Below, piece by piece: positions 1 to 17,271 of a stretch of 46,772 nucleotides of DNA. Location: positions 1 to 46,772 of the forward strand of contig SVMH01000012.1 in the NCBI GenBank assembly GCA_015067525.1. Reading direction: 5' to 3'. The DNA comes from Oscillospiraceae bacterium. Its GTDB lineage: Bacteria > Bacillota > Clostridia > Oscillospirales > Oscillospiraceae. A program made the position numbers and the translations under genes. The notes under the pieces are model-generated. The model had not been told where the DNA came from and made no database searches. It saw nothing but the letters and a program-made list of their open reading frames with translations. The number at the start of each line of letters is the position of its first letter. Positions within the stretch are counted from its first letter, which is position 1.

Positions 1-93
1 TTCGAAAGTAGTGGGCATCATCACGCCCTGGCGCTGCTCGCAGAACACCCATACGTTCTTGAAGGCGCCGATATCAGCACTATTAAAAGCCAT
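1..93 (-). CDS. etfA: Electron transfer flavoprotein alpha subunit, N-terminal fragment (cut by window edge)
   Basis: Only the first 31 codons are inside the window, beginning MAFNSADIGAFKNVWVF and continuing with a CEQR stretch. The K-x-V-W-V-F-x-E-Q-R pattern is the usual start of EtfA proteins. An AGGAAG-type ribosome site lies just upstream, in the 18-base gap to etfB. EtfA binds FAD and pairs with EtfB to pass electrons to or from the acyl-CoA dehydrogenase encoded three genes upstream. The rest of the gene lies left of position 1, so FAD-binding motifs cannot be checked. The identification rests on the short N-terminus plus the etfB neighbour. Confidence 0.85.
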   Translation of the reverse strand, partial: MAFNSADIGAFKNVWVFCEQRQGVMMPTTFE

Positions 94-111
94 TTTTCTT
101 TCTCCTTCCTC

Positions 112-912
112 TTAGATGATGTGCTTGGCGGCCAGGATGCCTGCCAGCTTGTCGGTGGTCTCCTTGCCATCGCCGTCCAGCATCATGCCCACGCCCTTCT
201 GGGGAGGCGTGAAGGAGGTCAGAATGTTGGTGGGAGAACCTTCCAGACCGATGGTGCTCTTGTCGATCAGGGGATGATCCTTCAGAGTCTCATAGGTCAT
301 GACGGTCATAGGCTTATGATAGGCATCCAGAATGCCGCGGATATTCATATAGCGGGGATTGTTCAGCTCCTTGACGCAGGTGATCACGCAGGGAGTCTGC
401 ACCTTCAGCGTCATATAGCCGTCTTCCAGCATGCGCTTGACGGTCAGAACGTTGTTATCCTTCTGGATCTGCGCAGCGTAGGAAACCTGGGGCAGATGCA
501 GCTTCTCAGCGATCTGAGGGCCGACCTGAGCGGTATCGCCGTCGATGGCCTGACGTCCGGCCAGGATGATATCCTCGGCCTCCACACCGTAGGTGTCGAT
601 AGCGGCGGCCAGGATCTGGGAGGTGGCATAGGTGTCGGAGCCGCCGAACTCACGGGCGGTGACCAGCACGCCTTCGTCCACGCCCATGGCCATCAGCTCA
701 CGCAGCATGCCCTCGGCAGGAGGGGGACCCATGGTAAATGCGACGACCTTGCAGCCCAGCTCATCCTTCAGGGCCAGAGCGGCCTCAACAGCATTTCTGT
801 CATCGGGGTTGATGATGGTCTGCATGCTGGCACGGTTCAGGGTGCCATCGGGGTTCACGGCCACCTTGCCGGAGGTATCGGGAACCTGCTTCACTGTTAC
901 CAAAATCTTCAT
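112..912 (-). CDS. etfB: Electron transfer flavoprotein beta subunit
   Basis: This 266-residue protein has the usual EtfB length. It starts MKILVTVKQVPDT and carries the AGRQAIDGDTAQVGPQ nucleotide-binding stretch near residue 118. Its EtfB signature runs from VKRMLEDG to the TCVKELNNPRY segment near residues 160-195. With EtfA it forms the FAD/AMP- or FAD/FAD-containing heterodimer that is the redox partner of acyl-CoA dehydrogenases. In anaerobic Clostridia such pairs often bifurcate electrons from NADH to an enoyl-CoA and to ferredoxin. Whether this one bifurcates cannot be told from sequence alone. It sits 18 bases before etfA and 14 bases after the acyl-CoA dehydrogenase stop, with an AGGAGG site 9 bases from ATG. 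This is one transcription unit. Confidence 0.95.
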   Translation of the reverse strand: MKILVTVKQVPDTSGKVAVNPDGTLNRASMQTIINPDDRNAVEAALALKDELGCKVVAFTMGPPPAEGMLRELMAMGVDEGVLVTAREFGGSDTYATSQILAAAIDTYGVEAEDIILAGRQAIDGDTAQVGPQIAEKLHLPQVSYAAQIQKDNNVLTVKRMLEDGYMTLKVQTPCVITCVKELNNPRYMNIRGILDAYHKPMTVMTYETLKDHPLIDKSTIGLEGSPTNILTSFTPPQKGVGMMLDGDGKETTDKLAGILAAKHII

Positions 913-926
913 TTTCCTTTTCCTCC

Positions 927-2066
927 TTACAGACCCATATTGGCAGAGATGACGATGCGCTGGACTTCGGAAGTACCCTCATAGATCTCGGTGATCTTGG
1001 CATCGCGCATCATGCGCTCCATGGGATAGTCCTTCGTGTAACCGTAGCCGCCGAACATCTGCAGGGCCTTGGTCGTAGTCTTCATGGCATGTTCGGAAGT
1101 GAACAGCTTGGCCATAGCGGCCTCCTTGGTGTAGCGCTTGCCTTCGCTCTTCAGCACAGCGGCCTGATAGGTCAGCAGGCGGCCTGCCTCACAGCCCAGC
1201 TCCATGTCAGCCAGCGTGAACTGGGTATTCTGGAACTTGGAGATCGGCTTGCCGAACTGAACGCGGCCCTTCGTATAGTTGATCGCCTCGGCCAATGCGC
1301 CCTCGGCAATACCCAGAGCCTGTGCAGCGATGCCGATACGGCCGCCGTCCAGAGTCTGCATGGCGATGGAGAAGCCTTTGCCCTCTCTGCCCAGCATGTT
1401 TTCCTTGGGAACGATGCAATCCTGGAACACGATCTCAGCCGTGGGGGATCCGTGCAGACCCATCTTTTCCTCGTGCTTACCCACGGAGAAACCGGGGAAG
1501 CTGCTCTCCACGATGAAAGCAGAGATGCCCTTGGTACCCTTGGTCTTGTCGGTCATGGCAAACACCACAAACACATCGGCCACATAGCCGTTGGTGATGA
1601 AGACCTTGGAACCGTTCATCACATAGTGATCGCCTTCCAGACGTGCCTCGGTCTGACCCTTGGAGGCATCGGAGCCGGCGTTGGGCTCGGTCAGAGCAAA
1701 GGCGCCCACCTTATGTCCCGTGGTCAGCATGGGCAGGTACTTTGCCTTCTGCTCTTCGGTGCCGTGGGTCATGATGGGGTCGCAGCACAGGCCGTTGTGG
1801 GTCGCCACAATGTCGCCGGTGGAAGCGCACTGCTTGCTCAGCTCTTCAATGGCGATGGCACTGGCCAGCGGATCGGCACCGGCGCCGCCATACTCGCGGG
1901 GGACGCACATACCCATGACGCCCAGGTCGAACAGCTTTTCAATGTTTTCGCGCGGATACTGACAGGTACGGTCCGTCTCAGCGGCGATGGGCTTGACTTC
2001 ATTCTCGGTGAACTCCGCCATCATTTTGCGCACCAGCAGGTGCTCTCTGCTCAGATTAAAATCCAT
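927..2066 (-). CDS. Acyl-CoA dehydrogenase (butyryl-/acryloyl-CoA reductase type)
   Basis: This 379-residue flavoprotein begins MDFNLSREHLLVRK, the typical start of clostridial short-chain acyl-CoA dehydrogenases. It has the FAD/substrate signature FALTEPNAGSDAS near residues 122-134 and, close to the C-terminus, QMFGGYGYTKDYPMERMMRD followed by ITEIYEGTSE, which holds the catalytic glutamate. Two ATGs lie side by side. The inner one (2064-2066) is 7 bases from GGAG and is preferred; the outer one ends at 2069. Next to etfBA, a CoA-transferase and an enoyl-CoA hydratase, it most likely works in the reducing direction on an enoyl-CoA (acryloyl- or crotonyl-CoA). The exact chain length is not readable. 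An 86-90 base gap without recognisable signals separates it from the CoA-transferase stop. Confidence 0.93.
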   Translation of the reverse strand: MDFNLSREHLLVRKMMAEFTENEVKPIAAETDRTCQYPRENIEKLFDLGVMGMCVPREYGGAGADPLASAIAIEELSKQCASTGDIVATHNGLCCDPIMTHGTEEQKAKYLPMLTTGHKVGAFALTEPNAGSDASKGQTEARLEGDHYVMNGSKVFITNGYVADVFVVFAMTDKTKGTKGISAFIVESSFPGFSVGKHEEKMGLHGSPTAEIVFQDCIVPKENMLGREGKGFSIAMQTLDGGRIGIAAQALGIAEGALAEAINYTKGRVQFGKPISKFQNTQFTLADMELGCEAGRLLTYQAAVLKSEGKRYTKEAAMAKLFTSEHAMKTTTKALQMFGGYGYTKDYPMERMMRDAKITEIYEGTSEVQRIVISANMGL

Positions 2067-2156
2067 CATATTTCTCCTTTTCCTTTGGTGAAATGATTAC
2101 TTGACGCCGGCAATATTGGGGGCCAGCTTTTTTGTTCTGAATACCGCGTCTTTTCC

Positions 2157-3719
2157 TTATTCGTCAGCCAGACCCATCTTCTCTTCGCGGAAGATGCGCG
2201 CATCCATCAGCTTCAGGTCTTCGGCGATCACGGGGGTGAACTCCATCTGGTCCAGAATGTCCTTCTGCAGGTCCACGCCGGGGGCGATCTCAATGAGGGT
2301 CACACCCTCGGGGCGCAGCTGGAACACGGCGCGCTCGGTGATATACAGCACCGGCTGGCCCACCTTGTTGGCGTAGGTGCCGGAGAAGGTGATGTGCTCC
2401 ACTTCACGGACGAACTTCTTCTTCTCGCCCTCCTGCAGGATCTTCAGCTGGCCGTCAGCCACCTCCACCTTCAGACCCTTGGCGGTGAAGGTGCCGCAGT
2501 AGCAGACCTTCTTGGCGTTCTGGGTAATATCCACAAAGCCGCCGGCGCCGGCCAGACGGGTGCCAAACTTGGAGACGTTCAGGTCACCGTTGGGTGCCGT
2601 CTCGGCCAGACCCAGGAATGCGATATCCAGACCGCCGCCCTGATAGAAGTCGAACTGCACGTTGTGCTCCAGAATGGCCTCGGCATTGGCCGAAGCACCG
2701 AACTGCGGACCGGACAGCGGTACACCGCCGATGGGGCCGGCCTCAACAGTCAGCGTCATCTTATCGGAGATGCCCTCTTCCGCGCAAACATTGGCGATCT
2801 GCTCGGGCATGCCGGTGCCCAGATTGACGATCGCGTTATCGGGCAGCTCCATCGCAGCGCGGCGGGCGACCACCTTGCGCTGGTTCAGGGGGATCGCGGG
2901 GATCGCGTCCAGAGGAATGGTGAACTCGCCGCAGGCAGAGCCGTCATACTCCATGCTGATGCACTGGGTGCTGTCCTCCGGCTCGCCGATCACAACGGCA
3001 TCCACGTAGATACCAGGGATCTTGACCAGCTTGGGATCCAGCGCGCCGGCTGCCACCATGCGTTCCACCTGCACGATGACCTTACCGCCGGAGTTCTTGC
3101 AGGCCTGCGCCATGGCGGTCACATCCAGGGGGCCCACCTCACGGTGGACGGTGCAGTTGCCGCGCTCATCGCAGTAGGATGCACGCAGGAACACCACATT
3201 AATGGGGAAGGTTTTATACAGCAGGCGCTCCTGACCTTCGATCTCGATCAGCTTGACCAGATCTTCCTTGGTCACGTCGTTCAGCTTGCCGCCGCCGTTG
3301 CGGGGATCGGCAAAGGTATACAGGCCCACATGGGTGATGGTGCCCAGATTATGCGCCGCGATATCGCGGTACATATGGGTGATAACGCCCTGAGGCAGGT
3401 TATATGCCTCGATCTTGTTCTCCAGAGCCAGCTTGCCAAGGCCCGGTGCGCGGTCCCAGTGACCGCCCACCACGCGCTTGACCATGCCTTCATGGGCAAA
3501 GTGGTCGCCGCCGGAGCCGGGCATCTGGCGATAGCCCTGACCGGCTGCATAGAACAGCGTCAGATCACGGGGAGCACCGGTCTCCACAAAGCGCTTTTCC
3601 AGCGCCTTGGACAAGGTTTCGGGGCAGGCGCAGCTAACAAAACCGCCGGTAGAGATGGTGTCTCCATCTTTCACCATCATGACAGCCTCTGCTGCAGAAA
3701 GTACGCGAACTTTTCTCAT
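2157..3719 (-). CDS. Family I CoA-transferase (propionate/acetate/3-oxoacid CoA-transferase type)
   Basis: This 520-residue single-chain protein has alpha-like and beta-like halves in one polypeptide, as in propionate CoA-transferase and E. coli YdiF. The first half has the glycine-rich ISTGGFVSCACPETL segment near residue 22. The second half has NLGTGMPEQIANV followed by the catalytic glutamate at about residue 326 in the LTVEAGPIGGVP motif. It would move CoA from acetyl- or propionyl-CoA onto a hydroxyacid made by the upstream dehydrogenases, and release the final fatty acid. It sits 12 bases after the crotonase gene, with a GAGGGA ribosome site. No AMP-forming CoA ligase is nearby, so this enzyme is the likely activation step. 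Substrate preference is inferred from context. Confidence 0.92.
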   Translation of the reverse strand: MRKVRVLSAAEAVMMVKDGDTISTGGFVSCACPETLSKALEKRFVETGAPRDLTLFYAAGQGYRQMPGSGGDHFAHEGMVKRVVGGHWDRAPGLGKLALENKIEAYNLPQGVITHMYRDIAAHNLGTITHVGLYTFADPRNGGGKLNDVTKEDLVKLIEIEGQERLLYKTFPINVVFLRASYCDERGNCTVHREVGPLDVTAMAQACKNSGGKVIVQVERMVAAGALDPKLVKIPGIYVDAVVIGEPEDSTQCISMEYDGSACGEFTIPLDAIPAIPLNQRKVVARRAAMELPDNAIVNLGTGMPEQIANVCAEEGISDKMTLTVEAGPIGGVPLSGPQFGASANAEAILEHNVQFDFYQGGGLDIAFLGLAETAPNGDLNVSKFGTRLAGAGGFVDITQNAKKVCYCGTFTAKGLKVEVADGQLKILQEGEKKKFVREVEHITFSGTYANKVGQPVLYITERAVFQLRPEGVTLIEIAPGVDLQKDILDQMEFTPVIAEDLKLMDARIFREEKMGLADE

Positions 3720-3731
3720 GCTTTTTCCCTC

Positions 3732-4508
3732 TTACTTGTTTTCAAACACGGCAGGACGCTTCTCCAGGAAGGCGCCCATGCCCTCTTTCTGATCCTGAGT
3801 GGCAAAGCACATGGCGAACAGCTCGTTCTCCAGGGCGATGCCGTCATCAATATCCATCTGCATGCCGCGGTCGATGCAGGCCTTGGCATACTTCACGGCG
3901 ATGGGTGCATTTTTGGTAAAGGATTTTGCCATTTCGATGGCGCCGGGCAGCAGCTCCTCGGGAGCGTACACGGCGTTGACCAGACCGATCTTCTCGGCTT
4001 CGTCAGCCTTGATCATCTTGCCGGAGTAGATCAGTTCCTTGGCCTTGCCGATGCCCACGCGGCGGGGCAGACGCTGGGTGCCGGAGAAACCGGGGGTGAT
4101 ACCCAGGCCCACTTCGGGCTGGCCGAACTTGGCCTTCTCGGAGGCCAGAATGATGTCGCAGGAGAGGGCCAGCTCACAGCCGCCGCCCAGAGCGAAACCG
4201 TTGACGGCAGCGATGGTGGGGATCTCCAGCTTTTCGATGCGGCGCATCAGAGCGCTGCCGCGCTGACCCCAGCGGCGGCCGCCGTCCAGCGTCAGAGGCT
4301 TCTGCTCACCGATGTCGGCGCCGGCCACGAAGGAGCGGCCTGCACCGGTAATGATCAGCGCACGCAGCTCCAGATCGCGCTCCACCTCACCGATGAGCTG
4401 CTCCAACTCGGAGATGACCGTGGAGTTGAGGGCGTTGAGAGCCTCGGGGCGGTCGATGGTCAGCACGCCGATGGCGTCTTCCTTGGTATACTTGATGGTC
4501 TGATACAT
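3732..4508 (-). CDS. Enoyl-CoA hydratase/crotonase family protein
   Basis: This 258-residue protein matches the family length. It shows the oxyanion-hole segment FVAGADIGE near residue 60 and NGFALGGGCELALSCDI with Glu112. Glu132 follows in GQPEVGLGITPGFSGTQRL. The 20-residue spacing equals that of the two catalytic glutamates of rat crotonase (144 and 164), so it should be an active hydratase. It would interconvert a 3-hydroxyacyl-CoA and a 2-enoyl-CoA between the CoA-transferase and acyl-CoA dehydrogenase steps. Having a crotonase rather than a radical or flavin/iron-sulfur 4-hydroxybutyryl-CoA dehydratase argues that the CoA ester is 3-hydroxylated. GGAGGAG lies 7 bases upstream of ATG. 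Confidence 0.93.
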   Translation of the reverse strand: MYQTIKYTKEDAIGVLTIDRPEALNALNSTVISELEQLIGEVERDLELRALIITGAGRSFVAGADIGEQKPLTLDGGRRWGQRGSALMRRIEKLEIPTIAAVNGFALGGGCELALSCDIILASEKAKFGQPEVGLGITPGFSGTQRLPRRVGIGKAKELIYSGKMIKADEAEKIGLVNAVYAPEELLPGAIEMAKSFTKNAPIAVKYAKACIDRGMQMDIDDGIALENELFAMCFATQDQKEGMGAFLEKRPAVFENK

Positions 4509-4540
4509 AGCTGCTCCTCCTTATGAGCCGGGCGTTCCCG

Positions 4541-5596
4541 TCAATCCATGACCAGCATGGCCTTGCCCGGTGTTCCGCCCATAGCATTCAATTCTTCAAA
4601 TCCCTTCTGCACCTGGGCAAAAGGTATCTTTCTGGTAATAAACTTCTTTACATTGATCTTCCCTGCCGCCACCGCATCCAGCACCTGCACAAATTCCTCG
4701 GGGAAATGTCCCTTGGTGCCCTTCCAGACCACTTCTTTCAAAATGAGGTCGTTGTAGCGGATGGCCATCTCTTCTCCCCTGTGCAAGGCAACAGAGGTGA
4801 AGCATTTTCTTGCCCGCACATCCTCTCGGAAGGCGTGGGCAATGGCGCCGTTCACCGCCGCGGCCACGCCGCAGCAGTCGAACACCACATCAAAACCGCC
4901 GCCCGACAGCGCCTGATACTGAACAAACAGATCCTCTGCCGCCGCATCCAGCACATGGTCGGCGCAGCGGAAGTCGCGGATCACATCCCGCTTCTCCGGC
5001 ACGATCTCGGTGATGACCACCAGCTCCGCGCCCTTGCTGCGGCACCACTCCGCCGTGGAGCAGCCGATGATGCCGCCGCCCAGCACCAGTACCTTGTCGC
5101 CGGGGCGGACGTCGGTGCGGTTGACGGCGTGCAGCGTCACCGCCAGCGGCTCCAGCAGCGCGCCTTCTTCGTTGGACACGTTTTCCGGCAGACGGAAAAA
5201 GCTGCCGGGGAACCAGGTGGTGTAACGGCTGTAGGCGCCCGGGTGGCTCAGATCGCCGCCCTTCCACGTGTATACCTTGCGGTTGGTGCAGCCGTCATAG
5301 TCGCCGCGCAGGCAGGCGTCACAGTGTCCGCAGAATTCGCCGCGGATGTTCTGGGTGTAACCGGCCACCCGGTCGCCGATCCGGAGATCACTGTTCCCCG
5401 GATCGACGACGGTGCCGGCAAATTCATGTCCTAAAACCTGTCCTACATGGTTTTCGCCTTCCAGCCACCAGTCCATGTCCGTTCCGCAGATGCCCACGTG
5501 GGTCACCTTCACCAGCGGCGTGCCGCTGACACGGAACTCCTCGTCCACCAGACGGAACTGCCGTTTACCGGCCAGAACAGCGCAGGTGTTTTTCAT
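4541..5596 (-). CDS. Zinc-dependent medium-chain alcohol/polyol dehydrogenase
   Basis: This 351-residue MDR protein has catalytic-zinc ligands Cys37 (ICGTD) and His57-Glu58 (GHEFAG). A complete structural-zinc set follows at Cys89, Cys92, Cys95 and Cys103. A Rossmann motif (VLGGGIIG) lies near residue 173. The layout is that of threonine/sorbitol dehydrogenases that oxidise a secondary hydroxyl with NAD(P). The substrate cannot be named. Being inside the run it may oxidise a polyol-derived intermediate. It lies 12 bases after the upstream 4-hydroxybutyrate-dehydrogenase-like gene and 32 bases before the crotonase gene. It is only distantly similar to the second zinc enzyme at 13356-14408, so the two probably act on different intermediates. 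Confidence 0.9.
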   Translation of the reverse strand: MKNTCAVLAGKRQFRLVDEEFRVSGTPLVKVTHVGICGTDMDWWLEGENHVGQVLGHEFAGTVVDPGNSDLRIGDRVAGYTQNIRGEFCGHCDACLRGDYDGCTNRKVYTWKGGDLSHPGAYSRYTTWFPGSFFRLPENVSNEEGALLEPLAVTLHAVNRTDVRPGDKVLVLGGGIIGCSTAEWCRSKGAELVVITEIVPEKRDVIRDFRCADHVLDAAAEDLFVQYQALSGGGFDVVFDCCGVAAAVNGAIAHAFREDVRARKCFTSVALHRGEEMAIRYNDLILKEVVWKGTKGHFPEEFVQVLDAVAAGKINVKKFITRKIPFAQVQKGFEELNAMGGTPGKAMLVMD

Positions 5597-5608
5597 GTCC
5601 CTCTCTCC

Positions 5609-6796
5609 TCAAAAGCACTCGCGGTAGACCCGCTCCATCAGCTCAAGATCCATGGGCACATAGGCGTTGCTCAAAAGACGCTGCTGGTTGGTCTCCACGC
5701 TCTTGGGAAAGTCCACCATGTCCTGTTGGGTAAAGCCCACCTCGCGCAGCGGGCGCAGGGGCAGGATCTTGGCCAGCAGGGCGTTGAGCTCGTCGATGGC
5801 GTCCTCCACCTTGCAGCCGGTGATGCGGGCGATCATTTCCTTGAACTTCAGCAGCTCGCCATTGGGATCGTACTCATCATAGATGCGCAGGATGGAGCCG
5901 AACAGCATGCAGTTGCTCTCGCCGTGCGGCACATGGTAGGCTCCGCTGAGAGGATAGCTCATGGCGTGCACGGCGCCGCAGCCCGCCTTCAGGAAGGCGA
6001 TGCCTGCATAGAAGGAAGCCGTGACAAACTCGTCGAGATAGGCAAAGCGGGCGTCGGGGCCATTCTCCGCAATACGGAGGAAGCCCTCCACGATCATCTC
6101 CACCGCCTTCACGGAGAAGAGCTCGGAGGTCATGGTCTTGCGGGTAGGAGACAGGAACGACTCGGTGGCGTGGATCAGGGCATCGATGGCGCTGCAGGCA
6201 AAGGGTTTGTAGGGCAGCGTCTTCAAAATGTCCGGGATCAGGCAGACCTTGTCGGGGATCAGCTCATCGGAGGCAAGACCCAGCTTGGTCTCACCGCCGG
6301 TCAGCACGCCGTCCATTTCCGCCTTCACGCTGGCCACAGAGATGTTGGTGCATTCGCTGCCGGAGCCGCAGGTGGCGGGCACCGCGATCACGGCCTTTTC
6401 GCGAATCACAGGGAAGCGCTTGTAAAACAGGTTGTGCGCCGTGTCGGGACGTCGGCAGCCCAGCAGCTTGCAAAGATCCAGCGTAGCTCCGCCGCCCACA
6501 GCAATGACGCGGTCATAGCTGTCATAGGGAATGGCGTCGTACATGTTCCCGATCATTTCCTCGCTGGGTTCGCCGGAACCGAACTGTTCCCGAAATACGA
6601 AGCGGCACTTCAGGCCCAGTTCCTCCATGCAGGGGCGGTAGATGTACTTGTTGGTCACCACCACATCGCGCTCGTTCAGCCCGAACTCCTCCGCCATCTG
6701 GGCAAAGGTTTCAAACTTATACACGGTGGGCGCGAAAATGATCTCGCGCTTGTCCGCCGCCGAAGCGGCAGGTGCGGTGTTTGTCTTCTTGGTCAT
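5609..6796 (-). CDS. Iron-containing alcohol dehydrogenase, 4-hydroxybutyrate dehydrogenase family (copy A)
   Basis: This 395-residue type III alcohol dehydrogenase reduces a short semialdehyde to a hydroxyacid, or the reverse. The family call rests on patterns also found in the C. kluyveri enzyme: APTVYKFET near residue 22, FGSGEPSEEM near 72, and YHVPHGESN near 287. Metal ligands are expected at Asp205, His209, His277 and His291, and all are present. GGGATLDLCK near residue 101 is the nucleotide-binding turn. It lies 52 bases after its close paralogue and appears to be a tandem duplicate. In this operon, malonic semialdehyde to 3-hydroxypropionate is as plausible as succinic semialdehyde to 4-hydroxybutyrate. 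The N-terminus has a short Ala/Thr-rich extension compared with copy B. Confidence 0.88.
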   Translation of the reverse strand: MTKKTNTAPAASAADKREIIFAPTVYKFETFAQMAEEFGLNERDVVVTNKYIYRPCMEELGLKCRFVFREQFGSGEPSEEMIGNMYDAIPYDSYDRVIAVGGGATLDLCKLLGCRRPDTAHNLFYKRFPVIREKAVIAVPATCGSGSECTNISVASVKAEMDGVLTGGETKLGLASDELIPDKVCLIPDILKTLPYKPFACSAIDALIHATESFLSPTRKTMTSELFSVKAVEMIVEGFLRIAENGPDARFAYLDEFVTASFYAGIAFLKAGCGAVHAMSYPLSGAYHVPHGESNCMLFGSILRIYDEYDPNGELLKFKEMIARITGCKVEDAIDELNALLAKILPLRPLREVGFTQQDMVDFPKSVETNQQRLLSNAYVPMDLELMERVYRECF

Positions 6797-6848
6797 CTAT
6801 GCTCTCCTTTACGGGTTTCTCCGGCACGGTGCGGTTATTTTCGGGTGC

Positions 6849-8036: not shown

Positions 8037-8056
8037 AATAATCAAATCTCCTTTTC

Positions 8057-9451: not shown

Positions 9452-9464
9452 GGCACTTCCCTCC

Positions 9465-10802
9465 TCAGATCAGCAGCACGGGGCTCTGCAGATAGGTCTG
9501 CACCCGCTGCAGGAACTGAGCGGCCTCGGCACCGTCGATGATGCGGTGGTCGTAGCTCAGGGTCAGTGCGCACATGGGCTTGATGACGATCTCATCCTCG
9601 CCGTCCTTGCCGGTGACCACGACGGGGGTCTTGACAATGCGGCCCACCGCCAGAATGGCGGACTCGGGAGGATTGATGATGGCCACGAACTCGTCCAGGC
9701 CGAACATGCCCAGAGAGGACACGGTGAAGGTGCCGCCGTGGTAGTCATCGTTGGTCAGCGCGCCGTCACGGGCCTTGGCGATCAGGGCGGCAGACGCGTC
9801 TGCAATACCCTTCAGGCCGATGATGTCGGCATCCTTGATGACGGGCACGATCAGGCCGCCGGGCACGGATACGGCCACGCCCACGTTGACATAGTCATGG
9901 TAGACGATGTTGTCGCCGTCCACAGAGGCGTTGACGATGGGATAATCCTGCAGAGCCTTGGCGCAGGCGCGGACGATGATGTCGTTGTAGGACACCTTGG
10001 TACCCATGGCGGCGAACTGCTTGCGGGCCTCCATGGCGGCAGACATATCCACGCTGATGCGATGGTGGGTCTGGGCGTTGACCTGCTTGCTATTGAGCAT
10101 ATTGCGCATGATGGCCTTGCGCATACCGCTCATACGCTCGGTGCGGGTGCCGCGGACAGGAGCGACGGCAACCTCGGCAGCAGCGGGAGCTGCAGCGCCG
10201 GGCAGGTCGGCGGTGGTGATCTTGCCGCCCACGCCGGTGCCGGTGATGCCGGCCAGATCGATGCCCTGTGCCTTGGCCACGTTGGCAGCCAGAGGCGTCA
10301 CGGCGGGCTTGTTGGCGATGTAGGCCTTCACGTCGCGCTCGATGACCATGCCGTCGGGACCGGAACCGGCCACAGCGGCGATGGCGATGCCGTTTTCCTC
10401 GGCGCGCAGACGGGCGCGGGGAGAGGAGAACACGCGCTCACCGGGTGCACGCTCCACGGCAACAGCGGCGGCAGCTTCCTCCGCAGCGACAGCGGCGGCA
10501 GGAGCCTCTTCGGCGGCGGCAGCGGCAGGAGCCTCGCCGCCCACCAGAGCGGAGATGTCCTCGCCGGGCTCGCCCACGATGGCGATGGGCTGGGTGATGG
10601 GCACCTCGTCGCCTTCACCGTGCAGGATCTTCAGCACGGTGCCGGTGGCGGTGGAGTCCATGGTGATGGTCAGCTTGTCGGTCTCCATCTCAAAGAGGGG
10701 AGTACCCTCGGTGGTCTGCTCGCCTTCCTTCACCAGCCATTTGGTGATGGTACCGCTTTCCATCATAAGGCCCTGCTTGGGCATAATGATTACAGAAGCC
10801 AT
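9465..10802 (-). CDS. acoC: Dihydrolipoamide acyltransferase (E2), with two peripheral-subunit-binding domains
   Basis: This 445-residue protein has one lipoyl domain (residues 1-80, lipoyl lysine Lys43 in METDKLTI) and an Ala/Glu-rich flexible linker of about 40 residues. Two E3/E1-binding-domain-like segments follow (near 125-165, FSSPRARLRAEENG, and near 168-205, TPLAANVAKAQGI). A second Ala/Pro linker leads to the catalytic acyltransferase core (about 220-445). LTLSYDHRIIDGA near the C-terminus carries the catalytic His and the Asp-Gly. It takes the acyl group produced by E1 to CoA. Two binding domains in one E2 are less common than one. It lies between E1beta (15 bases) and E3 (13 bases). 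Confidence 0.93.
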   Translation of the reverse strand: MASVIIMPKQGLMMESGTITKWLVKEGEQTTEGTPLFEMETDKLTITMDSTATGTVLKILHGEGDEVPITQPIAIVGEPGEDISALVGGEAPAAAAAEEAPAAAVAAEEAAAAVAVERAPGERVFSSPRARLRAEENGIAIAAVAGSGPDGMVIERDVKAYIANKPAVTPLAANVAKAQGIDLAGITGTGVGGKITTADLPGAAAPAAAEVAVAPVRGTRTERMSGMRKAIMRNMLNSKQVNAQTHHRISVDMSAAMEARKQFAAMGTKVSYNDIIVRACAKALQDYPIVNASVDGDNIVYHDYVNVGVAVSVPGGLIVPVIKDADIIGLKGIADASAALIAKARDGALTNDDYHGGTFTVSSLGMFGLDEFVAIINPPESAILAVGRIVKTPVVVTGKDGEDEIVIKPMCALTLSYDHRIIDGAEAAQFLQRVQTYLQSPVLLI

Positions 10803-10817
10803 AATCTATTTCCTTTC

Positions 10818-11798
10818 TCAGCGATACAGAGTCTTCTTGCAGGCGTCCACGATCTCCTTGATGCTGGGGATCACGGCCTTCTCCAGCTCCAGATTGAAGG
10901 GCAGGGGGCAGGCCTTGGCACCCAGATGGATGGGAGCAGCGTCCAGATAGGGGAACACCATCTGACCGACCTGAGAGACGACCTGAGCGCCCCAGCCGTT
11001 GTTCTGGTGAGCCTCATGAACCACCACCAGGCGGCCGGTCTTCTTCACGCTCTCAGCGATGGTGTCATAGTCGAAGGGAACCAGAGTGCGGGGGTCGATG
11101 ACCTCGGCGCTGATGCCTTCCTTGGCCAGTTCCTCAGCGGCTTCCAGAGCGCGGGAAACGTACAGCAGGTTCGCCACGATGGTCACATCGGTGCCCTCGC
11201 GCTTGATGTCGGCCTTGCCGAAGGGGATCATGAAGTCGGGATCCTCGGGGACCTCGCCCTTGTTGATGTACAGAGCCTTGTGCTCGAAGAAGCACACGGG
11301 GTTGTCGTCGCGGATGGCGGTGCGCAGCAGACCTGCAGCCTCAGCGGGCGTGGAGGGGCAGGCGACCTTGATGCCGGGGATGTGCATGAACATGCTCTCC
11401 ACGCACTGGGAGTGGGTGGCGGCGTTGCCGCGGCCGGTACCTTCCTGGCTGCGGATGACCAGCGGGATCTTGGCGTTACCGCCGAAGACGTAGCGGGTCT
11501 TGGCCACCTGGTTGAAGATCTGATCGGCGGCCACGAAAGCGAAGTCCCAATACATCAGCTCAGCGATGGGACGCATACCGCCGCAGGCAGCGCCCAGAGC
11601 GGCGCCGACGATAGCGGACTCGGAAATGGGCGTATTGCGGATACGCTCCGTACCAAACTCTTTATACAGGTCGCGGGTGGTGCCGAACACGCCGCCCAGC
11701 TTCTCGCAGTCCTCGCCCATGCAGAAGACCTTGTCATCACGCTGCATCTCCTGCTGGATCACCATGCGGATTGCCTGTGCATAAGTCATTTTTGCCAT
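10818..11798 (-). CDS. acoB: Acetoin-dehydrogenase-type E1 component, beta subunit
   Basis: This 326-residue transketolase-like protein contains the beta-subunit hallmarks MGEDCEKLGGVFGTT near residue 27, RNTPISESAIVGAALGAA near 54, and RSQEGTGRGNAATHSQ near 116. It forms an alpha2beta2 thiamine-diphosphate enzyme with the adjacent alpha subunit. That enzyme cleaves acetoin or a related hydroxyketone/2-oxoacid and passes the acyl group to lipoyl-E2. Beta subunits of the pyruvate, branched-chain and acetoin complexes are close relatives. The acetoin assignment comes mainly from the alpha partner. GGGGGT lies 9 bases before ATG, and the gene starts 18 bases after the alpha stop codon. Confidence 0.92.
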   Translation of the reverse strand: MAKMTYAQAIRMVIQQEMQRDDKVFCMGEDCEKLGGVFGTTRDLYKEFGTERIRNTPISESAIVGAALGAACGGMRPIAELMYWDFAFVAADQIFNQVAKTRYVFGGNAKIPLVIRSQEGTGRGNAATHSQCVESMFMHIPGIKVACPSTPAEAAGLLRTAIRDDNPVCFFEHKALYINKGEVPEDPDFMIPFGKADIKREGTDVTIVANLLYVSRALEAAEELAKEGISAEVIDPRTLVPFDYDTIAESVKKTGRLVVVHEAHQNNGWGAQVVSQVGQMVFPYLDAAPIHLGAKACPLPFNLELEKAVIPSIKEIVDACKKTLYR

Positions 11799-11816
11799 GA
11801 TTTCGTACCCCCTTAC

Positions 11817-12782
11817 TTAACCTTCATAAAACACGTCGTCCAGAACATGAGCCGGATCGGGCTCAGGGCTGTTCATGGCGAACTCAACAGCTTCTTCCAT
11901 CTTCTTTGCCACGTCGGCGGCGATCTTGTCCAGCTCTTCCTGAGTGGCCAGACCGTTCTCGATCATATAGGCAGCAAACAGCTTGATGGGATCGCGGTTT
12001 TCCTTCCAGTATTCCACTTCCTCGCGGCTGCGGTACACCTCGGGGTCGCCGGTCCAGTGGCCGCGCCAGCGATAGGTCTTGCACTCCAGCAGCGTGGGGC
12101 CCTCGCCCTTCAGAGCGCGCTCCTTAGCGCGGGCAAATGCCTCGTACACGGCCACCACGTCGTTGCCGTCCACCACTTCGCCCACGATGCCGTAGCCGGC
12201 GGCGCGGTCAGCGATGTTCTCCACGGAAGTGGACTGCCACACGGGCACGGTCATACCGAACTGGTTGTTCTCGCAGATGTAGATGATAGGCAGCTTCCAC
12301 ACGGCAGCCATGTTGATGGCCTCGTGGAAGGTACCCTGGTTGGATGCGCCGTCACCAAAGAAGGCGACAGAGACGTTGGGCTTGCCCTGCATCTTCTGAG
12401 CCAGGGCGCCGCCGGTGGCGATGGGGATACCGCCGCCCACGATGGCGTTGGCGCCCAGATTGCCCTTGGAGAAGTCGGCGATGTGCATGGAGCCGGAACG
12501 GCCCTTGCAGTAACCGGTAGCCTTGCCCATCAGCTCAGCCAGAGCGCGGTCCAGCTCGGCGCCCTTGCCGATGCAGTGGCCGTGGCCGCGGTGGGTGGAA
12601 GCGATGTAGTCCTCGTCGCTCAGCTGAGCGCACACAGAGGCAGCCACGGCTTCCTCACCGGTGTACAGATGCACGCTGCCGCGCAGCTTGTTCTCGGTGA
12701 ACAGCGTCCATGCCGTCTCTTCAAATGCCCGGATCTCATGCATCTTGTTGTAGATCCACAGGGCGGTTTTCTTATCGATCAT
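11817..12782 (-). CDS. acoA: Acetoin-dehydrogenase-type E1 component, alpha subunit (TPP-binding)
   Basis: This 321-residue protein has the thiamine-diphosphate motif from GDG (143-145) to ENN (171-173). The HRGHGHCIGKG and RSGSMHIADFSKG segments, followed by GANAIVGGGIPIATG, are typical of AcoA-type alpha subunits. The start MIDKKTALW at 12780-12782 is chosen because GGAGGT lies 9 bases upstream. An in-frame extension to 13061 would run into the VOC gene and has no ribosome site. It decarboxylates or cleaves the C-C bond and hands the acyl group to E2. In this operon its substrate may not be acetoin; a diketone or 2-oxoacid derived from a polyol is possible. It follows an 85-base AT-rich gap. 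Confidence 0.93.
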   Translation of the reverse strand: MIDKKTALWIYNKMHEIRAFEETAWTLFTENKLRGSVHLYTGEEAVAASVCAQLSDEDYIASTHRGHGHCIGKGAELDRALAELMGKATGYCKGRSGSMHIADFSKGNLGANAIVGGGIPIATGGALAQKMQGKPNVSVAFFGDGASNQGTFHEAINMAAVWKLPIIYICENNQFGMTVPVWQSTSVENIADRAAGYGIVGEVVDGNDVVAVYEAFARAKERALKGEGPTLLECKTYRWRGHWTGDPEVYRSREEVEYWKENRDPIKLFAAYMIENGLATQEELDKIAADVAKKMEEAVEFAMNSPEPDPAHVLDDVFYEG

Positions 12783-12867
12783 TTGAAACGCACCTCCAAA
12801 AGATTTTGTTTGTTGGTTTGGTTGTTTTTTATTATTTCTCAGTGTTTCCACCGTAAATAAACCGTTG

Positions 12868-13359
12868 TTACGCTTCCTCCGGCCGGTAAGCCGTGGCGTT
12901 TTCCAGGATCTCCACGATGCCGGGGATATCCGGGATCTTGGCGTAGATGTTGCGGCGGTAGCCCTTGACGGGATCGTTGGCCACCATTTCGTAGACAAAC
13001 ACGGCGCCCATGGCCTCCACCTCGGCGCGGCACTCATCGAACCGGTCGGTGGTAAAGGCAAGATGGTTGAGGTTATCGCCGCTGGCCACCAGAGACAGGA
13101 AGTGGTAGCCCGCAGGGGTCAGGGGCTGGATGAACTCCATGGAGATCTTGTCCCCGATGGGGCACATGGCAATGCGCATCTCCAGCTTGCCCAGATCCAC
13201 GCCGCCCGACCAGGACTTGGTGGGAGCGAAGATGTAGGACTTCACATCCAGCGCGCAGCCGAACTTCTCCTGCACGCTCTTGAGGCACGCTTCCACATCC
13301 TCCACGATGTAGCCGGCGTGCACTTTGGGGGTCAGCTTATCCAGAATACTCACGCTCAT
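12868..13359 (-). CDS. VOC-superfamily protein (methylmalonyl-CoA epimerase-like / glyoxalase fold)
   Basis: This 163-residue two-module vicinal-oxygen-chelate protein has putative metal ligands His14 (KVHAGYIVED), His99 (LNHLAF) and Glu150 (PGIVEILEN). The spacing matches methylmalonyl-CoA epimerase and related isomerases. Members epimerise or isomerise carbons next to a carbonyl. In a polyol pathway a keto-sugar or keto-cyclitol epimerase role would fit as well as methylmalonyl-CoA. No mutase gene is in the window, which weakens the methylmalonyl reading. Its ATG overlaps the TGA of the upstream zinc dehydrogenase by 4 bases, so the two are translationally coupled. That favours a shared pathway with that dehydrogenase. 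Confidence 0.85.
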   Translation of the reverse strand: MSVSILDKLTPKVHAGYIVEDVEACLKSVQEKFGCALDVKSYIFAPTKSWSGGVDLGKLEMRIAMCPIGDKISMEFIQPLTPAGYHFLSLVASGDNLNHLAFTTDRFDECRAEVEAMGAVFVYEMVANDPVKGYRRNIYAKIPDIPGIVEILENATAYRPEEA

Positions 13360-14408
13360 ACCTCCTCAAACGTATTGTTCGGCAGCAGAACTGCCTTGTA
13401 GACCTTCTTTTCCAGCACGGCGTCAAAGGCTTCGTGCCACTGCTCCAGCGGCAGCTGCAGCGTGACGAAGGGCTCCAGAGACACACCCTTTTCCAGCAGT
13501 TCCATGGTGATCTTCCACGCCGAAACGCTGCTGGAATTACTGGGCACGTAGGTCACTTCCCGATCGAAGAAGCTGTCCAGACGGAAGGGCACCTTGCCGC
13601 CGAACATGCCCAGCTGCAGGTGGAAACCCATGGGGCGGATCACCTGCATGCAGGTGTCCAGCGAAGGCGTCACGCCGGTGCAGTCGCAGGTAATGTCGGC
13701 GCCGTAGGGGCTGCGGCGGTAAACTGCCGTCTTCAGTTCCTCTGCGCTCGTCACCGTCTCGTCCACGCTGCCCAGCTTCTGCGCCAGCTCCAGCTTATCG
13801 GCATCGGCCGGCAAGCCGGAGAGGATCACATACGCGCCGCGGGATTTGAAGAGGATGGAGGCCATCTGGCCCATGACACCGGGGCCGCTGACCACCACCG
13901 TGTCCCCTGCCTTCACGTCGAGGCGCTCATACACGCCGCGCACCACGCAGGCAAAGGGCTCGGCCAGCGCGTAGGAGATCTTCTGCTCCCGCGTGCGGGC
14001 GTTGGCGGGGATTTTGTACGTATACTTGGCGGGCACCACCACAAAGTTGGCCATAGCGCCGTTGCGGTGGGAGCCGATGGACTTGCGCTCACGGCACAGC
14101 GTCACAACGCCGGCAAGGCACAGCTCACACTCGCCGCAGCTATAGCAGGCCGGCAGTGTAGTGACCCAGTCGCCCACCTTCAGTTCGCCGGTGTCGCCGC
14201 AGGTCTCCACGATCTGGCCCACGTATTCGTGGCCCATCACCACCGGCATGGTCACGGAGCGCTCATCCCGCATGGCATGGATATCGCTGCCGCAGATGCT
14301 GGCTGCCAGCACCTTGACCTTGCATTCGCCCTCTTTGGGTACGGGATCGGGCAGTTCCTGCAGACCCACGCCGTCCATGCCCAGGGCGTATTTCACAAGA
14401 CCTTTCAT
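13356..14408 (-). CDS. Zinc-dependent dehydrogenase, sorbitol/L-iditol dehydrogenase-like
   Basis: This 350-residue MDR enzyme has catalytic-zinc residues Cys39 (SICGSD) and His60-Glu61 (MGHEYVG). Structural-zinc cysteines follow at 91, 94, 97 and 105. The cofactor-binding turn VSGPGVMGQMA is near residue 170. It is expected to oxidise a secondary alcohol of a polyol to a ketone with NAD(P). The start MKGLVKYALG at 14406-14408 has GGAG 7 bases upstream. A longer reading would overlap the SDR gene. It ends in a 4-base overlap with the VOC gene and begins 13 bases after an SDR gene. The cluster of three dehydrogenases around an isomerase-like protein resembles polyol or cyclitol catabolic gene sets; the substrate is unknown. 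Confidence 0.9.
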   Translation of the reverse strand: MKGLVKYALGMDGVGLQELPDPVPKEGECKVKVLAASICGSDIHAMRDERSVTMPVVMGHEYVGQIVETCGDTGELKVGDWVTTLPACYSCGECELCLAGVVTLCRERKSIGSHRNGAMANFVVVPAKYTYKIPANARTREQKISYALAEPFACVVRGVYERLDVKAGDTVVVSGPGVMGQMASILFKSRGAYVILSGLPADADKLELAQKLGSVDETVTSAEELKTAVYRRSPYGADITCDCTGVTPSLDTCMQVIRPMGFHLQLGMFGGKVPFRLDSFFDREVTYVPSNSSSVSAWKITMELLEKGVSLEPFVTLQLPLEQWHEAFDAVLEKKVYKAVLLPNNTFEEV

Positions 14409-14421
14409 AACGTTCTCCTTT

Positions 14422-15168
14422 TTAGCGCATGGACTGGCCGCCGTTGACACTCAGGTTCTGGCCCGTCACGTAGTTGGCCAGGGGAGACACCAGATACAGC
14501 ACGGCGTCCGCCACTTCCTGCGGCGTACCCATGCGGTCCATAGGCACATCGTAGGAGTAGACCTGGGAGCCCAGACTGTCGGTCATGCGGGAAGCGATGA
14601 TGCCGGGGGAAACGGTATTGGCCGTCACGCCGCTGCTGCCGGCCAGCTTGGCCAGCACCTTGGTAAAGCAGATGAGACCTGCCTTGGAGATGGAGTAGTG
14701 GGGGCCGGCATACTTGGCGCCGCGCTCACCGGAGATGGAGCCCAGCGTCACGATGCGGCCGAAGCCGCGCTCTTCCATGCGGAAAAACAGCTCCCGGGTC
14801 AGGAAGAAGGGGGACTTGAGGTTGATGTTCATCATCTTGTCCCAGTCCGCCGGGGTAATGTCGCGGTAGGTAATGGTGTTGGTGATGCCGGCCACATTGA
14901 CCAGAATGTCGATGGCGCCGCACTCACGCTCCATGGTGTCGATCAAACCGGCGAGGCCGTCGAAATCGCACAGGTCGTGCACATAGGTATGTACCGCCAC
15001 CTCGAAACGGCTTTCCAAATCGGCCTTCACGGCCTCCAGCGCCTTTTCGTTGATGTCCAGCAGCACGATGGCCGCACCTTCCGCCGCCAGCGTGGCAGCG
15101 ATGGTGGATGCCATCTCACCGGCGCCGCCGGTGATGAGGGCCTGACGGCCCTTGAGCATTTCTTTCAT
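14422..15168 (-). CDS. Short-chain dehydrogenase/reductase (SDR) with altered glycine motif
   Basis: This 248-residue classical SDR has the active-site serine in LGSISGERG near residue 140, the catalytic HYSISKAG tetrad segment (Tyr and Lys four residues apart) near residue 155, and NVAGI near 90. It ends in VTGQNLSVNGG. The cofactor motif reads ITGGAGEMAST. Two of the glycines of the usual TGxxxGxG pattern are replaced by Glu and Ala, which could change cofactor binding. It likely oxidises or reduces a hydroxyl of a sugar or polyol intermediate with NAD(P). GGAGG lies 9 bases before ATG, and it is 14 bases from the preceding SDR gene. The substrate is unknown. Confidence 0.88.
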   Translation of the reverse strand: MKEMLKGRQALITGGAGEMASTIAATLAAEGAAIVLLDINEKALEAVKADLESRFEVAVHTYVHDLCDFDGLAGLIDTMERECGAIDILVNVAGITNTITYRDITPADWDKMMNINLKSPFFLTRELFFRMEERGFGRIVTLGSISGERGAKYAGPHYSISKAGLICFTKVLAKLAGSSGVTANTVSPGIIASRMTDSLGSQVYSYDVPMDRMGTPQEVADAVLYLVSPLANYVTGQNLSVNGGQSMR

Positions 15169-15182
15169 AGGTTATTTCCTCC

Positions 15183-15938
15183 TTAGTGCATCAGCCAACC
15201 ACCGGTGACATTAAAAACCTGACCGGTGAGATAATCCGAACCATCGGAAGCCAGGAATTCGATCACCTTGGCCACATCATCGGCTTCGCCGAAGCGGTTC
15301 ATAGGAATCTTAGACATGAAGTTATCGACCTGCTCGGGCGTGTAGCGGGCAGTCATAGGGGTCTTAATGATGCCGGGAGCAATGCAGTTCACATTGATGC
15401 CGTCTTCAGCAACCTCGCGTGCCAGCGAACGGCTCATGCCGATAATTGCTGCTTTGGAAGCAGAATAATGGGTATGTTTGACAGAACCAACCACGCCGGC
15501 CTGAGAAGCCATGTTGATGATTTTGCCGTACTGGTTTTCCAACATATTGGGCAGGACTGCACGGCAGAAGAACATCACGCTGTTGATGTTGATGTCCATC
15601 GTATGGGACCACTCGTCGAAGGTCATGTCCTTAAACAGACAATCCGTGTAGATGCCGGCTATATTCACCAGAATAGAAACCTTACCGAACAGCTCGAGGC
15701 ATTTGTCAACGGCTGCGTTGACCTCTGCCTCAACGGTGGCGTTGCAGACATAAGGATATACAAGCTCAGACAGTCCCTCCTCGGCGATCTTTGCCATCAT
15801 GCGATCCAGAGCTTCCTGACTCATATCAACTGCAAACACTTTGCAGCCTTCTTTTGCAAGGCGCACAGTAGAAGCAGTGCCCATGCCACCGGCGGCACCG
15901 GAAATAATCGCAACAGCGTTATTCAGGCCCAAAAACAT
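15183..15938 (-). CDS. Short-chain dehydrogenase/reductase (SDR)
   Basis: This 251-residue classical SDR has the intact cofactor motif SGAAGGMG near residue 14, NIAGI near 93, the catalytic serine in NMASQAG near 144, and HYSASKAA with Tyr and Lys near 158. IAPGIIKTPMT near residue 187 is the usual post-catalytic loop. It would act with the neighbouring SDR and the zinc enzymes in polyol or keto-sugar oxidation and reduction. Its DNA looks noticeably more A/T-rich in codon third positions than the flanking genes, which may mean separate acquisition. That is a visual impression, not a computed value. It starts 32 bases after the transaldolase-like gene with only a weak AAGGGTG ribosome site. 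Confidence 0.9.
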   Translation of the reverse strand: MFLGLNNAVAIISGAAGGMGTASTVRLAKEGCKVFAVDMSQEALDRMMAKIAEEGLSELVYPYVCNATVEAEVNAAVDKCLELFGKVSILVNIAGIYTDCLFKDMTFDEWSHTMDININSVMFFCRAVLPNMLENQYGKIINMASQAGVVGSVKHTHYSASKAAIIGMSRSLAREVAEDGINVNCIAPGIIKTPMTARYTPEQVDNFMSKIPMNRFGEADDVAKVIEFLASDGSDYLTGQVFNVTGGWLMH

Positions 15939-15970
15939 GTCATTACACCCTTTCTAAAAAGCTATGCAGA

Positions 15971-17020
15971 TCAGAACCAGCGGGCACCCTGAGGAGCCTT
16001 CTGATAGCCTTCCAGCGGGACCCAACCGGTCCACAGGAACTGGGAGATGGTCTTCTGGGTGACGCCGAAGGTGATGAACTCCTCGGGCTTCAGTGCGCCT
16101 TCCTCGTAAGCGCGGACGAACTCGGGGATCTTGTACAGCTCCTGAATGACGGAAGCGGGGATCTCGTCGTCGATGTGGCACACGCGCTCAGGATCGGCCT
16201 CGATGGTCATCTGCTGGATGCGGGCCTGCAGAGAGAAGGTCATGTCGGCACCGGCCATGGAGGTCAGGTGATGCACGCCACGCAGGCCTGCAGGCATGAC
16301 CACGGCGGGAATGCCGCGCTCCTTGATGAGGCCGTACACCTTCTTGCAGATGGCGTTGCCGGCGTTGCGGATGATCTCGGGATCGATGTTGATGCGGTTA
16401 TCGGTGGCGCACTCCAGCAGGTACTCGTCCAGACGGCCGCCCTGCTGCACCACGAAGATGGGCTTGGGCTGAATGCCGGCAGCTTCTGCCTTGGCGCGGC
16501 CGCGCATGTAAGCCTCGCACACGGCCATGGCCTGGGAGACGGAGAAGTTCAGCGTGGTGCACACGGCGATGCCGCGGGAAGCCAGCTCCTCCACCAGAGG
16601 CAGGGCGGACATGATGGAAGGCGTTTTGACGGAGATGTTGTCCGCCCAGGAGGCGTAGCGCAGACCCTGTGCCAGCATCTTCTCGCTGTCCATGCAGATG
16701 GTGGGGTCCAGCTGGCCCAGCGCGTAACCATGCTGGCCATTGGTAGCCTCAAACACATGGCGGAACTTGTCGGCGGCGTAGGTGGCCACCATCTGCAGCA
16801 GCGCCTCGGCGTGCTCGGCAGGAGTCAGATCCTTGGGGATCTGGTCCACCTGAGGCTGCCAGAATTCAGGCACGGCCTGCAGCGTTTTGTAAGTCAGCAC
16901 GGGGTTGGTGGTCACGCCCATGGCGCCGTTCTCGATGGCGGCGTCGATCTCGGCGGGGATGGCAGAGTCATGCCAGAAACGGGTGGGGGTATTCTGCGTC
17001 AGCCACTGCAAATAGTTCAT
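15971..17020 (-). CDS. Transaldolase-family protein (divergent, about 350 residues)
   Basis: This 349-residue protein starts MNYLQWLTQNTPTRFWHDSA. It has GVTTNPVLTYKTL near residue 38, the transaldolase hallmark, and a likely Schiff-base lysine in NISVKTPSIMSAL near residue 125. TTLNFSVSQAMAV near 150 is also typical. Transaldolases and fructose-6-phosphate aldolases reversibly split a keto-sugar at a dihydroxyacetone unit. This sequence is longer than FSA-type enzymes (about 220 residues) and differs from the TalA/B core, so the substrate may be unusual. The start at 17018-17020 has GGAGG about 5 bases upstream. It is the first gene of the 17-gene run, preceded by a leader hairpin, and so probably marks the sugar type degraded. 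Confidence 0.85.
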   Translation of the reverse strand: MNYLQWLTQNTPTRFWHDSAIPAEIDAAIENGAMGVTTNPVLTYKTLQAVPEFWQPQVDQIPKDLTPAEHAEALLQMVATYAADKFRHVFEATNGQHGYALGQLDPTICMDSEKMLAQGLRYASWADNISVKTPSIMSALPLVEELASRGIAVCTTLNFSVSQAMAVCEAYMRGRAKAEAAGIQPKPIFVVQQGGRLDEYLLECATDNRINIDPEIIRNAGNAICKKVYGLIKERGIPAVVMPAGLRGVHHLTSMAGADMTFSLQARIQQMTIEADPERVCHIDDEIPASVIQELYKIPEFVRAYEEGALKPEEFITFGVTQKTISQFLWTGWVPLEGYQKAPQGARWF

Positions 17021-17071
17021 AAGATCCTCCTTATCGGTATATCTCTCGTTTGATGTTTGTTTTTTCGTCAA

Positions 17072-17231: not shown

Positions 17232-17271
17232 AAAAGCGTACGGGAATCTCTCCCGCAGATATTCTTGCGTC

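Follow-up and report, generated by a model that had tools for sequence, protein, structure and literature searches.

Gene content of the locus

The DNA analysed here (hereafter the window) comprises 46,772 nucleotides, corresponding to bases 1-46772 of contig C20 in the draft genome of an Oscillospiraceae gut bacterium (G000; 1.97 Mb, 87 contigs, 85% complete, 4% contamination). A run of 17 minus-strand genes spans positions 17020 down to the contig end (position 1) and contains genes for a transaldolase-like aldolase, a thiamine-dependent dehydrogenase complex and enzymes of acyl-CoA metabolism. The 15 gaps separating its 16 complete genes measure −4 to 87 bases, the single overlap (−4) being located between a Zn-dehydrogenase and a VOC gene and the widest gap (87 bases) between the genes for a CoA-transferase and an acyl-CoA dehydrogenase. 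An earlier note on this DNA had described such a one-strand run of 17 genes, and both the arrangement and the gene families named there (TAL_FSA, short-chain dehydrogenases (SDR), Zn- and Fe-dehydrogenases, E1-E2-E3, crotonase, family I CoA-transferase, acyl-CoA dehydrogenase, EtfB) were confirmed. Many long open reading frames on the plus strand were taken to be mirror images of the minus-strand genes. A promoter-like and a terminator-like site lie directly before the transaldolase gene, but site scans gave results at chance level (6 vs. a mean of 5.0, and 11 vs. 12.8 in shuffled DNA). The whole run may be transcribed as one unit.

All features given below are located on the minus strand. The proximal half starts with a transaldolase-like Schiff-base aldolase of 349 amino acids (TAL, 15971..17020; PF00923, 93 bits), followed by two short-chain dehydrogenases recognised by NCBIfam SDR models: SDR1 (15183..15938), with a relative of 73% identity in locus L020, and SDR2 (14422..15168), with relatives of 91% in L009 and of 74% beside TAL in L018. 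MDR1 (13356..14408) is a Zn-dependent dehydrogenase of the threonine/inosose dehydrogenase type, which adjoins TAL in several relatives; the NCBIfam model for L-threonine 3-dehydrogenase scored best (168 bits), and the IolM model gave 153 bits at a cut-off of 450. It is followed by an epimerase-like VOC (Glyoxalase_4) protein (12868..13359; PF13669, 44.6 bits), for which no PDB relative was found at E 0.01. The gene set typical of acetoin dehydrogenase complexes stands together in the run, encoding E1 alpha (11817..12785; TIGR03182, 377, missing the cut-off of 394) and E1 beta (10818..11798; NF006667, 353, passing the cut-off of 321) of a thiamine-dependent 2-oxoacid/acetoin-type complex, the E2 lipoyl acyltransferase (9465..10802; TIGR01349, 331 bits, below the cut-off of 445) and the E3 dihydrolipoyl dehydrogenase (8057..9451; TIGR01350, 553, passing the cut-off of 409).

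The distal half opens with FeA (6849..8045), a putative Fe-dependent semialdehyde reductase, possibly of the 4-hydroxybutyrate dehydrogenase type. FeA matched Cvir-Hbd2 (PDB 30sm), a name which we read as hydroxybutyrate dehydrogenase, with 330 bits, against at most 80 bits for propanediol/lactaldehyde reductases; with the NCBIfam model for 4-hydroxybutyrate dehydrogenase it reached 94 bits (cut-off 500). A second reductase of this kind, FeB (5609..6796), is 84% identical to FeA, and the two are the sole matches of their kind in the G000 genome (E 1e-40). MDR2 (4541..5596), a second Zn-dependent dehydrogenase assigned by family models, separates them from a crotonase (ECH, 3732..4508; PRK05809, short-chain-enoyl-CoA hydratase, 364, cut-off 394). 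In the relative G295 (the same genome as G320) no gene lies between FeA and ECH, and the 3′ end of FeB aligns with the 3′ end of the G295 FeA gene. Further downstream are a family I CoA-transferase of the PCT/YdiF type (PCT, 2157..3719; PDB 2ahu YdiF, 492 bits), which is 98% identical to the G295 copy, and a short-chain acyl-CoA dehydrogenase of the butyryl-CoA dehydrogenase type (ACD, 927..2069; PDB 5ol2, 503 bits), the only PF02771 match in the assembled genome. The run ends with EtfB (112..912; AcrB model, 486.8, cut-off 475) and the N-terminus of EtfA (1..93), which is cut by the contig end after 31 codons. A 373-residue EtfA with a start matching that of the window is encoded in L081.

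A remnant of abfD in the run and an intact copy elsewhere

The gene for 4-hydroxybutyryl-CoA dehydratase, abfD, is part of related runs in other genomes. Its order is FeA-ECH-PCT-AbfD-ACD-EtfB-EtfA in G295, with an FeA 94% identical to that of the window, ECH-PCT-AbfD-ACD-EtfB in G305 and AbfD-ACD-EtfB-EtfA in G315. In G295 and G305 abfD occupies the exact place of the 87-base gap between PCT and ACD in the window. One frame of this gap reads KKLAPNIAGVK followed by a stop codon (2097..2142), and the AbfD of G295 has the C-terminus KKLAKNIAGIQD, likewise before a stop. The DNA alignment between the window and G315 extends into the last ~50 bases of abfD. Local alignment of the gap with the abfD end of G315 (L081) scored 37, while the best of 1000 dinucleotide shuffles scored 26. 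With the abfD ends of G295 and G305 (L054, L118) a score of 22 was obtained, which was matched by 17 of 1000 shuffles each, and the comparison with the AbfD paralogue of the G000 genome itself was at chance level (576 of 1000 shuffles). The C-terminal residues of AbfD are thus still encoded in the gap, from which the rest of abfD was deleted; a 3′ stump of about 46 bases is left.

The earlier note had listed thiolase, 3-hydroxybutyryl-CoA dehydrogenase and 4-hydroxybutyryl-CoA dehydratase as missing from the run. For the first two and for a complete dehydratase gene this holds, but the gap between PCT and ACD contains the 3′ stump of the latter. No thiolase gene and none of the genes iolGEDBCJ was detected in the run, to which these searches were confined, the remainder of the genome not having been searched for them. 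Absence of AbfD from the genome was considered and rejected: an intact copy is located on another contig (C75:73014-74453) and matches PDB 1u8v with 819 bits, compared to 892 bits for the AbfD of G295. Both proteins retain in the alignments the Cys and His motifs which we take to bind the iron-sulphur cluster. The intact gene is flanked by a PCT paralogue (51% identity) and a CoA-transferase of the acetyl-CoA hydrolase/transferase type. The argument which the earlier note drew from the missing dehydratase thus fails, as the gene was lost in place and another copy is present.

The aldolase and its association with a lipoyl complex

The AlphaFold model of TAL has a predicted local distance difference test score (pLDDT) of 94.9, and the best-matching solved folds are transaldolases (template modelling score 0.77, ~18% identity). 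Asp18, Asn39, Lys132 and Arg196 are kept in all 37 rows of an alignment from which pieces aligned over <270 residues were dropped. The window protein is one of these rows, and two proteins are represented twice, L007 and L023 coming from the same genome; the remaining 35 distinct sequences form two subfamilies, TAL and TAL′. From the transaldolase family we assume the roles of Schiff-base lysine and of catalytic Asp and Asn for the respective residues. The Neisseria enzyme has an arginine, presumably a ligand of the sugar phosphate, in its FSRAQ segment; this residue is missing in 37 of 37 rows (FSVSQ, FTVPQ and similar). Because of this absence an unphosphorylated or acid substrate of TAL is plausible.

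TAL is rare: of 295 genomes sampled from the order, two gave a match (E 1e-30), one of them being the genome of the window. Scanning of named genomes yielded 29 TAL loci, many of which are cut by contig ends. At six of them (L016, L017, L018, L031, L035, L036) TAL occurs with E1/E2/E3 genes, though only the start of E2 is visible before the contig end in L036 and a divergent regulator gene intervenes in L018; Acidobacteriota with a different gene order are among these loci. At six other loci (L012, L013, L014, L021, L023, L025) TAL is accompanied by another transaldolase-like gene and by a gene related to that for methylmalonate-semialdehyde dehydrogenase (MMSDH), and the MMSDH beside TAL in sister genomes is of the CoA-acylating type (TIGR01722, 544, cut-off 449).

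Complex and MMSDH appear to alternate. The 14 genomes with a TAL of at least 70% identity include eight with a close E1 beta (at least 79%), seven with MMSDH (at least 61%), one with both (G296) and none with neither (Fisher p 0.0047, with one independent well-supported pair on the TAL tree, so that kinship may underlie the alternation). The comparison covered 18 handles representing 17 genomes (G308 = G052). Outside the count of 14 are a 32% aldehyde dehydrogenase of G303 and the genomes G307, G309 and G310 (TAL at most 60%); G307 and G310 have MMSDH at 59–60%, and none of the three has a close E1 beta.

No description of a transaldolase-acetoin-dehydrogenase or transaldolase-inositol pathway was found in the titles and the starts of abstracts of the papers listed, with few subscription journals covered, and PMC12632266 makes no mention of transaldolase in its main text. 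The proximal genes form a conserved module for which no description was found in the literature searched.

Further neighbouring genes were noted at several loci. In L016 the run of TAL and complex leads on to genes for type II glyceraldehyde-3-phosphate dehydrogenase, phosphoglycerate kinase and a LarAH6-type nickel-dependent racemase whose score exceeds the cut-off (16901-20543). The E1-E2-E3 genes of L055 and L056 lie divergent to a gene related to that of the L018 GntR-type regulator, beside which a lipoate ligase-like protein (by eye) is encoded. L030, L033 and L034, which belong to different phyla, have an M24-family peptidase-like gene and one for a short-chain dehydrogenase ahead of the aldolase, and L018 and L020 carry TRAP transporter genes. 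The isolate genome RGIG7329 has three transaldolase-like loci (L010, L011, L027). L010 also contains genes for a thiolase, a CoA-transferase III and a short-chain dehydrogenase, relatives of some of which occur in L011 and L027, a set suggestive of sugar-acid breakdown by steps resembling beta-oxidation.

Interpretation of the run and rival explanations

We assign a probability of roughly 60% to the view that the run joins two modules, a sugar-acid or cyclitol module (module 1: TAL, SDR1, SDR2, MDR1, VOC, E1-E2-E3) and an acyl-CoA module that forms butyrate (module 2). On account of the abfD stump, the abfD-bearing relatives, the AbfD encoded elsewhere in the genome and the single ACD found, module 2 most likely leads from succinic semialdehyde via 4-hydroxybutyrate and crotonyl-CoA to butyrate, with AbfD provided in trans. 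The ACD relatives fit this assignment. The three relatives found at 87–94% identity (G295, G305, G315) all follow abfD. A search of 24 genomes, nine of which gave a match at E 1e-150, yielded seven further relatives of 61–65%, of which the three inspected (G296, G304, G326) follow a gene for 3-hydroxyacyl-CoA dehydrogenase. Of the proposal in the earlier note, the joint run with a polyol or sugar-acid oxidative module, an acyl-CoA module and a semialdehyde reductase is supported, and the propionate route attached to it is not supported.

According to that route, malonic semialdehyde would be converted via 3-hydroxypropionate and acryloyl-CoA to propionyl-CoA, and the loss of abfD would mark a changed use of the operon. 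The genes left in the run indeed make up a self-contained C3 set, the score of EtfB lies above the AcrB cut-off, and the CoA-acylating MMSDH beside TAL in sister genomes hints at malonic or methylmalonic semialdehyde. Nevertheless, the AcrB label is non-specific and we rejected it at face value, as EtfB proteins of AbfD runs also exceed the cut-off of 475 (487.5 and 480.3). ACD stays below the AcrC cut-off (543.1 vs. 640), though AcrC is the best-scoring named model, and the ACD adjoining AbfD in G315 reaches a similar value (543.9). An origin of malonic semialdehyde deduced from MMSDH synteny was likewise dismissed and retained only as support for this alternative, the G000 genome having no MMSDH at E 1e-20. 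PCT and FeA are 98% and 94% identical to enzymes of an AbfD operon, hence little enzyme change has taken place, and the AbfD of the genome has only this ACD found to serve it. Gene order in G295 and G305, with AbfD between PCT and ACD, further weakens the propionate reading, which is now the weaker of the two and in our view improbable. It is also quite improbable that crotonase, ACD and Etf are ordinary enzymes of butyrate formation from acetyl-CoA, with thiolase and 3-hydroxybutyryl-CoA dehydrogenase encoded elsewhere and the Fe-dehydrogenases acting as general alcohol dehydrogenases. ACDs beside 3-hydroxyacyl-CoA dehydrogenases are only 65% identical in the three relatives inspected, and the structure nearest to FeA bears the name Hbd2; on the other side, family matches to 3-hydroxyacyl-CoA dehydrogenase occur on contigs C16, C74 and C67, genes for a thiolase-like protein and a 3-hydroxyacyl-CoA dehydrogenase also belong to the G295 run, and a single ACD must serve every route. 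Given those family matches, the same ACD may serve acetyl-CoA-derived butyrate as well.

Compatible with either assignment of the distal half is the suggestion that E1-E2-E3 are a plain pyruvate dehydrogenase and not specific to the sugar-acid module. Among named models and structures, pyruvate dehydrogenases match best. The suggestion is a possibility to be taken seriously, if a doubtful one; against it, the complex stands with TAL-type genes in Oscillospiraceae and, reordered, in Acidobacteriota, and it alternates with MMSDH among TAL genomes.

Several observations speak against butyrate formation from succinic semialdehyde or against a fixed partnership of the modules. Neither a succinyl-CoA reductase nor a succinic semialdehyde dehydrogenase was found with PF00171 in the 85% complete genome (a transaminase source was not tested); the sole match to this aldehyde dehydrogenase family is ProA-like (42.6 bits). 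The AbfD in trans shares no more than 71% identity with the G295 type and lies on a different contig, and with abfD lost, the remaining genes of the operon could have been re-purposed. After G295, the next-closest PCT relatives (76%, G315 and G332) are located outside such a run, and the ECH-PCT-AbfD-ACD run of G305 is without FeA. Among the eight genomes with a close complex, FeA was found only in G000, G295 and G303 (a 43-residue start at a contig end); the two modules are therefore not always partners. The order E3-FeA is, however, common to L018 and the window (93% over 43 residues before the contig end, the fragment counted above), which hints at a link between the modules.

Proposed pathway and candidate substrates

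The run appears to serve the degradation of a plant-derived sugar acid or sugar alcohol. In the proposed scheme, module 1 would oxidise and cleave a sugar acid or a cyclitol-derived keto acid: its dehydrogenases would form the keto group, TAL would break off or transfer a three-carbon ketol unit via the lysine Schiff base, and the thiamine complex would convert a product to acyl-CoA and NADH. Module 2 would re-oxidise this NADH. The Fe-dehydrogenases would reduce succinic semialdehyde to 4-hydroxybutyrate, which the CoA-transferase would activate; AbfD from the other contig would yield crotonyl-CoA, ACD with EtfAB butyryl-CoA, and the CoA-transferase would finally release butyrate. Gene content, the abfD stump, the AbfD in trans, the single ACD found and the conserved catalytic residues are read directly from the sequences; we infer all substrates, the direction of flow and the feeding of the semialdehyde reductases by the complex.

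Inositols, uronates and aldonates are candidate substrates of module 1. After the aldolase gene of L011 come MDR1, a cupin-like gene and the gene for the tagaturonate epimerase UxaE (546 bits), and in G295 UxaE (543 bits) is part of the run leading into FeA. A cluster on contig C81 of the G000 genome encodes UxaE (447 bits) and an IolO-like epimerase (192, cut-off 300) together with a glycerol-dehydrogenase-like gene and a split transketolase. Distant relatives have IolE-like (182, cut-off 290) and IolO-like (148, cut-off 300) genes near the aldolase. UxaE and the IolO-like epimerase point to 5-keto-hexonates derived from a cyclitol or uronate as putative intermediates. D-tagaturonate, D-fructuronate and 5-keto-L-gluconate each combine a ketose structure with a terminal acid group. 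Such keto acids would fit a transaldolase cleavage into a dihydroxyacetone unit and tartronate semialdehyde, and a 2-deoxy form would give malonic semialdehyde. A more far-reaching proposal, which we regard as rather unlikely, is an undescribed route for unphosphorylated 5-keto-hexonates. Here TAL would remove a three-carbon ketol and the lipoyl complex would cleave a second ketol to acyl-CoA and an aldehyde acid, the latter serving via the Fe-dehydrogenases as electron sink and ending as a short-chain fatty acid. Sister species would achieve the same with a second aldolase and a CoA-acylating semialdehyde dehydrogenase.

Comparison with known systems

The run combines ordinary parts in an uncommon way, joining what is most likely the known butyrate route, its abfD displaced, to a sugar-acid module. 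The genes of butyrate formation from 4-aminobutyrate or succinate are abfH, 4hbt, abfD and bcd-etfAB, as given in PMC5715108. A putative semialdehyde reductase, CoA-transferase, AbfD (here in trans) and ACD with Etf are common to this route and to the genome of the window. Unlike there, abfD is deleted from the operon, the CoA-transferase is of the YdiF type, no succinyl-CoA reductase was found in the genome, and the run is joined to a sugar-acid module. The earlier note had invoked the conversion of inositol to propionate in Anaerostipes, in which, according to PMC8355322, the CoA-transferase converts 3-oxopropionate to 3-oxopropionyl-CoA before reduction; the order proposed for the run is therefore a different one. 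CoA-transferase, enoyl-CoA hydratase, ACD and Etf occur in both systems and are co-induced in Anaerostipes. Iol enzymes supply the 3-oxopropionate there, whereas the window run has no iol genes and carries the AbfD stump. An AcrB label and one absent gene would suggest the acrylate pathway, and the tempting propionate call is corrected here: deletion stump and synteny instead place the operon, most likely, in the 4-hydroxybutyrate route to butyrate.

The order of E1 alpha, E1 beta, E2 and E3 is that of acetoin/pyruvate dehydrogenase complexes; unlike the named complexes, E1 alpha and E2 of the window miss their cut-offs and are linked to a transaldolase-like gene. TAL shares the fold, the Schiff-base lysine and, by the roles assumed above, the catalytic Asp and Asn with the transaldolase/fructose-6-phosphate aldolase family, but differs from solved transaldolases by its low identity (~18%) and the lack of the FSRAQ arginine in every aligned row. 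The inositol and hexuronate pathways of Thermotoga (PMC3750489) presumably use IolM, IolO and UxaE, and we know of no aldolase of the TAL kind in them. The G000 genome resembles them in having UxaE, an IolO-like epimerase and, adjoining TAL, a weakly IolM-like Zn-dehydrogenase, and differs in that the IolM and IolO cut-offs are missed. The module of aldolase and lipoyl complex extends from Oscillospiraceae of herbivore guts to Acidobacteriota, and no described substrate was found for it.

Flanking genes

Upstream of the run and on the same strand are genes for an M81/MlrC-family protein (17272-18855) and an FGGY kinase (18810-20270), both of which are also present upstream of TAL in L009. Two DeoR-type regulators, one per strand, lie beyond the kinase. 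A 2134-residue protein with right-handed beta-helix repeats is encoded at 23725-30129. On the minus strand, the region 30206-44099 encodes two sets of binding-protein-dependent, sugar-type transporters, three PHP-domain-like proteins, two of which fall short of the Pfam cut-off, and a tandem pair of metallo-beta-lactamase-fold proteins.

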